DNA from: Acidobacteriota bacterium
Lineage (GTDB): Bacteria > Acidobacteriota > Terriglobia > Terriglobales > Acidobacteriaceae
Reading direction: 5' to 3'
DNA length: 64,000 nt
Assembly: GCA_021846275.1 (NCBI GenBank)
Contig: JAJZBZ010000005.1
Location: 1-64,000, forward strand
Under the pieces are notes generated by a model. That model saw nothing but the letters and a program-made list of their open reading frames with translations, did not search any database and was not told where the DNA came from. Positions 59,716-61,059 of the stretch are shown one piece after another. How positions within the stretch are numbered: the stretch's first letter is position 1; each line of letters starts with the position of its first letter. A program made the position numbers and the translations under genes.

Positions 59716-61059
59716 TTACCCTTCTTTGATGTTTGGTCGAGCGCGGCCGGCCAGGAGGTGAGCGGCGAGCGCGTCGCGCGAAATTTTGGTTTGTTGGCCA
59801 GTGGAGAAATTCTTGACGGTCAGGATGCCGGATTGCAGTTCGTCTTCGCCGAGCAGGACGATGTGTCGAGCAAGCTTGTCGGCGATCTCCATGGATTTGC
59901 GGACGCGGAAGCTGCCGTCGCCGAGTTCGATGCGGAGGCCGTTGTCCACAGTGTCGGCACCGGGCAAAAGAGCGCGGCGTAGCTCGCGGGCAAGCGCGAG
60001 CGCGGCGGGGTTTTGCGCGTCGCCGATGGGCGCGATGAAGGCGTCGGCGCGGGTAGGGAGCGATTTCTGCTGCGCTTCGAGGGTGAGGATGAGGCGGTCC
60101 TGGCCGATGGCGAATCCGATGCCGGGGGCGCGCGGCCCGCCGAGCGATTCGCTGAGTCCGTCGTAGCGTCCGCCGCCGAGCAGCGCATTCTGTGCGCCGA
60201 GTCCGCCGTGGGTGAATTCAAAGGTGGTTCGCGTGTAGTAGTCGAGGCCGCGCACGAGGCGGTGGTCGAGCGTGTAGGGGACGGCGGCGGCATCGAGCGC
60301 GGCGCAGACGGCGTTGAAGTGAGCACGGCTGGATTCATCGAGCGAGTCGGCGATGCGCGGCAGGGTTTCGATGAGGGGTTGATCGCCGGGCACCTTGCAG
60401 TCAAGCACGCGCAGGGGGTTGGTGACGGCGCGGCGCTGGCAGTCGGCGCACAACTGGCCGACGACGGGCGCGAGAGCGTCGCGCAGGCGAGCGAGGTAGA
60501 CGGGGCGATCGGCGGCCGAGCCGACGGAGTTCAGGCGCAGCGTCCAGCCGGTGATGCCGAGCGAGTCGAGCAGCGATGCGAGCATTTCGAGGATCTCGGC
60601 GTCGCGCAGCGGGGATTCGGAGCCGGAGTGGGGTGGCCCGATGACTTCGGCGCCGATCTGGAAGAACTGGCGGTAGCGGCCCTTTTGCGGTCGCTCGCGA
60701 CGGAACTGCGGGCCGATGTAAAAGAGCTTGTGCAACTGGCCGGTTTCGCCGAGCTGGTGTTCGATGTAGGCGCGGACGACGCCGGCGGTGTTTTCCGGGC
60801 GCAGGGTGAGGCTTTGGTTTTTTTCCGACTGCGCGCGGGCGCGATCCTCCCAGGTGTACATTTCCTTGGCGACGATGTCGGTTTCCTCACCGACGCCGCG
60901 AGCGAAGAGCGCGGTTTCCTCGAAGATGGGCGTGCGGATTTCGCCGAAGTGCTAACGCGCGAAGATCTCGCGGGCAATGGTCTCGACGCGGCTCCAGAGC
61001 GCAGTTTCGGGCGGGAGCAGGTCGCGCGTGCCGCGCACAGCTTTGACGGGGGTGGTCAC
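59716..61059 (-). pseudogene. hisS: Histidyl-tRNA synthetase with in-frame amber codon
   Basis: The reading frame runs from GTG 61059 to the stop at 59716, 447 codons, and matches HisRS end to end. It begins with [20 protein letters not shown]. Codon 36 is TAG (plus strand 60952-60954) where relatives normally have Tyr before the [11 protein letters not shown] region; the frame continues with [20 protein letters not shown]. Motif 2 (LTLRPENTAGVVRAY) and motif 3 ([13 protein letters not shown]) are intact, as is [12 protein letters not shown]. If real, translation would need readthrough or internal start at Met 60861, which would lose motif 1. Since hisS is essential, possibilities are another copy, suppression, or a base-call error. 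The neighbour order hisS-aspS is normal. Confidence 0.85.

Follow-up and report, generated by a model that had tools for sequence, protein, structure and literature searches.

The window analysed here, a stretch of 64,000 nucleotides from an Acidobacteriaceae-type genome, carries on its minus strand a gene for histidyl-tRNA synthetase (HisRS), hisS, that is interrupted at codon 36 by an amber codon. HisRS is essential; one has to ask, then, whether the cell makes the enzyme by some unusual route or whether the stop codon does not belong in the sequence. The initial annotation listed four options: a second hisS elsewhere, tRNA suppression, internal initiation, and an assembly or base-call error. 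The features concerned are the following.

59716..61059, minus strand: hisS, for histidyl-tRNA synthetase; 447 codons and a stop, starting with GTG at 61059, broken at codon 36; matched by TIGR00442 and 1kmm
60952..60954, minus strand: in-frame TAG, codon 36; tyrosine in all relatives compared
60955..61059, minus strand: codons 1-35, the conserved HisRS N-terminus 5′ of the TAG, as aligned to relatives
60859..60861, minus strand: ATG, codon 67, the first in-frame ATG, GTG or TTG past the TAG; with a restart here the conserved N-terminal region would be missing
57833..59707, minus strand: downstream neighbour, an intact synthetase-like ORF of 624 aa, 90% identical to its homologue in congener G013; from its own sequence we take it to be aspS

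The identity of the gene is clear: the TIGR00442 profile matched it with 438 bits (cut-off 286.75) from profile position 2 to 405 (of 406), a stretch that includes one TAG, and the protein matched E. coli HisRS in the PDB (1kmm) with an E-value of 9.5e-105. Counted from the GTG at 61059, the single frame 61059-59716 encodes an otherwise complete HisRS; across the N-terminal region it is not uninterrupted, as the TAG falls at codon 36. Thus, the gene resembles bacterial HisRS (TIGR00442; 1kmm) in its full-length one-frame match and in keeping all near-invariant positions save one, and it differs in having TAG where a conserved tyrosine belongs.

Genomes of relatives were searched with the whole HisRS protein, the TAG being entered as X. 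The query matched 59 of 61 genomes, all 14 congeners included, with one hisS match per congener. The codon 36 column held tyrosine at 108 of 108 loci (86 TAC, 22 TAT); these loci include the same genome fetched twice in some cases, and 94 distinct sequences cover the column. E. coli HisRS also has tyrosine at the aligned position, and the frame on either side of the TAG was kept in every relative aligned there. As both frame and tyrosine are conserved, the TAG is a real in-frame stop of the given sequence, not a product of chance extension 5′ of a start codon. The initial annotation was therefore right in placing an amber codon at a usual tyrosine, and also in reading the frame upstream of the first methionine as the HisRS N-terminus, codons 1-35 being conserved in relatives. 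The comparison with close relatives that it had proposed showed tyrosine throughout; the TAG was absent from all congeners compared and unique to this genome in the whole set. The exact DNA around the site, sought in viral contigs as a trace of another strain, had no match there.

Apart from the TAG, we saw no sign of decay in hisS. Among columns at least 99% conserved in the relatives, 138 of 139 are intact, codon 36 being the sole deviation; dN/dS against the six nearest relatives is 0.06-0.10, close to the 0.03-0.08 found among those relatives themselves. Judged by these measures, the gene is under strong purifying selection and otherwise undamaged.

A complexity-filtered survey for other interrupted genes set 1.02 Mb of this genome against 0.93 Mb from congener G013 (∼160 ORFs, 65,315 aligned residues); an unfiltered version was swamped by low-complexity wrong-frame matches. 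By inspection, no other in-frame stop lay in the genuinely conserved coding regions of these ORFs, and no frameshift was flagged; the other stops listed for this genome sat 5′ of the true start codons or belonged to a frame that is not the coding one. The TAG in hisS is one isolated base change. G013 itself (contig C5, L200, position 18940) has another isolated stop, a TAG in a gene whose homologue in this genome has tryptophan there, ∼10 residues short of where the alignment ends; from its sequence we take the gene, an accessory one, to be HNH-type endonuclease-like.

Could the TAG be decoded? In this genome 43 tRNA genes were found with the Rfam model and then typed by anticodon; the set is ordinary, none of the 43 has a CUA anticodon, and tRNA-Tyr, tRNA-Gln and tRNA-Trp look normal, with no odd anticodon stems seen. 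The sole tRNA gene of the window, tRNA-Lys(CTT) at 8091-8166, is ordinary too. Release factor RF1 is predicted from an intact prfA (528.9 bits, over the cut-off, no internal stops), while the best match to PylS reached 21.5 bits against a cut-off of 178. TAG terminates 29 of 123 conserved ORFs sampled and is therefore a working stop codon in this genome; a further in-frame TAG was not found in the conserved genes of the sample. Nor was there a stable RNA structure at the stop (the local fold is weaker than that of shuffled sequence, z +2.1) or a match to an Rfam family near it. The case shares with known amber recoding and suppression (genetic code 15 in phages, pyrrolysine, CUA suppressor tRNAs) an in-frame TAG within a conserved frame; unlike those systems, it has no CUA tRNA and no PylS, RF1 is evidently present and TAG ends many conserved genes. 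A search of the literature for recoded stops in bacterial bins brought up mainly phage papers and no matching case. The genetic code is standard, with no dedicated amber suppressor, and the suppressor or PylT-like tRNA considered in the initial annotation did not turn up among the 43 tRNA genes.

The reading we prefer, with a probability of about 0.72, is that the TAG is a consensus or assembly error in an otherwise normal, single-copy, selected hisS; the cells would carry a tyrosine codon at position 36 and would make full-length HisRS. The TAG, its isolation, the single gene copy and the standard code are observed, as is the absence of any dedicated suppressor; that a wrong base rather than a real recent mutation accounts for them is, we infer, most likely. 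An error is supported by the tyrosine in 94 of 94 distinct relatives, by the intact near-invariant columns, low dN/dS and single hisS, and by a decoding apparatus that offers the cell no dedicated means of reading TAG and uses it as a terminator. It is supported as well by the clean record of the ∼160 ORFs together with the number of false nonsense codons that ordinary errors should produce: with the codons of this genome 2.9% of random substitutions create a stop, so that per 3 Mb of coding DNA ∼0.9 false nonsense codons are expected at 1e-5 errors per base, and ∼0.09 at 1e-6. The survey cannot itself give an unbiased error rate, as it was the hisS TAG that prompted it. In the assembled sequence, the case looks like the isolated nonsense errors of draft genomes and metagenome bins: a single base change, an essential gene otherwise intact, a stop absent from every relative. 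Counting against an error, the 13-contig assembly is contiguous and looks clean elsewhere, the site lies within a 233-kb contig, and the change is a substitution without a homopolymer; thus, nothing local suggests an error of a typical kind.

The runner-up, unlikely yet well ahead of the remaining alternatives, is a very recent real nonsense mutation present in some cells (as when a metagenome bin mixes strains, or a lineage is dying out), taken into the consensus and serving no function. The absence of other damage in the gene is what a very young mutation predicts; also, several near relatives are metagenome bins, and this genome may be one too. Against it, cells that lack HisRS and have no other copy should not grow. 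We place a consensus error first and a recent or minority-strain mutation second, as the most likely order; the choice between them is an inferred one.

It is quite improbable that the 1-2% of the genome missing from the assembly contains another HisRS gene and that the hisS of the window is a new pseudogene. The assembly is indeed a draft (3.34 Mb in 13 contigs, 98.64% complete, no contamination), but each of the 14 congeners has a single hisS match, and the gene of the window keeps nearly all of its near-invariant columns, which argues against a pseudogene. The second copy suggested in the initial annotation was not found in the 98.64%-complete genome: protein search gave one hisS, and one TIGR00442 match exceeded the cut-off. 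Two additional weak TIGR00442 matches share a single frame of 712 residues, which probably encodes a different class II synthetase.

About equally improbable is a real and fixed TAG at which ordinary near-cognate readthrough, with no dedicated suppressor, yields enough HisRS. Readthrough of premature stops, TAG included, is measurable in E. coli, in the order TGA > TAG > TAA (PMC11126739). By our reasoning, a cell may also manage with a small supply of a synthetase. Against this stand the intact RF1, the tRNA set without CUA, the unstructured RNA at the stop and the absence of the TAG from all congeners compared; moreover, one base change restores the codon, so that selection should remove the TAG. 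We rate slightly lower still the stronger claim that the TAG is fixed in the species, with HisRS made by amber readthrough without a suppressor and its supply tied to termination efficiency.

Internal initiation, very improbable, would have translation restart at ATG 60861 (codon 67), the sole candidate, with the shortened protein working as HisRS. The 381-codon frame from there is open, but its product misses 26 of the 139 near-invariant positions, and the missing segment presumably holds class II motif 1, from what is generally known of class II synthetases. The N-terminus that would be discarded is still fully conserved save codon 36, which argues that it has been in use. Genome-wide TAG recoding, pyrrolysine or A-to-I editing of UAG, for which the open frame speaks and nothing else, is scarcely credible with PylS below cut-off, no CUA tRNA, TAG a regular stop, and a U-U-A-G-C context in place of the UACG motif, preferably in a stem-loop, that TadA requires (PMC12255301).

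Of the options in the initial annotation, the error is thus the one that stands, beside a recent or minority-strain nonsense mutation; the three biological rescues found no support. Ordinary error rates lead one to expect single nonsense codons in draft genomes, and biological conclusions should not be drawn from such a codon until it has been checked against the reads. A genuine, fixed TAG would make an essential synthetase dependent on stop-codon readthrough, which would be remarkable. Most likely, what we see is an error or a dead-end variant rather than a novel use of the genetic code.
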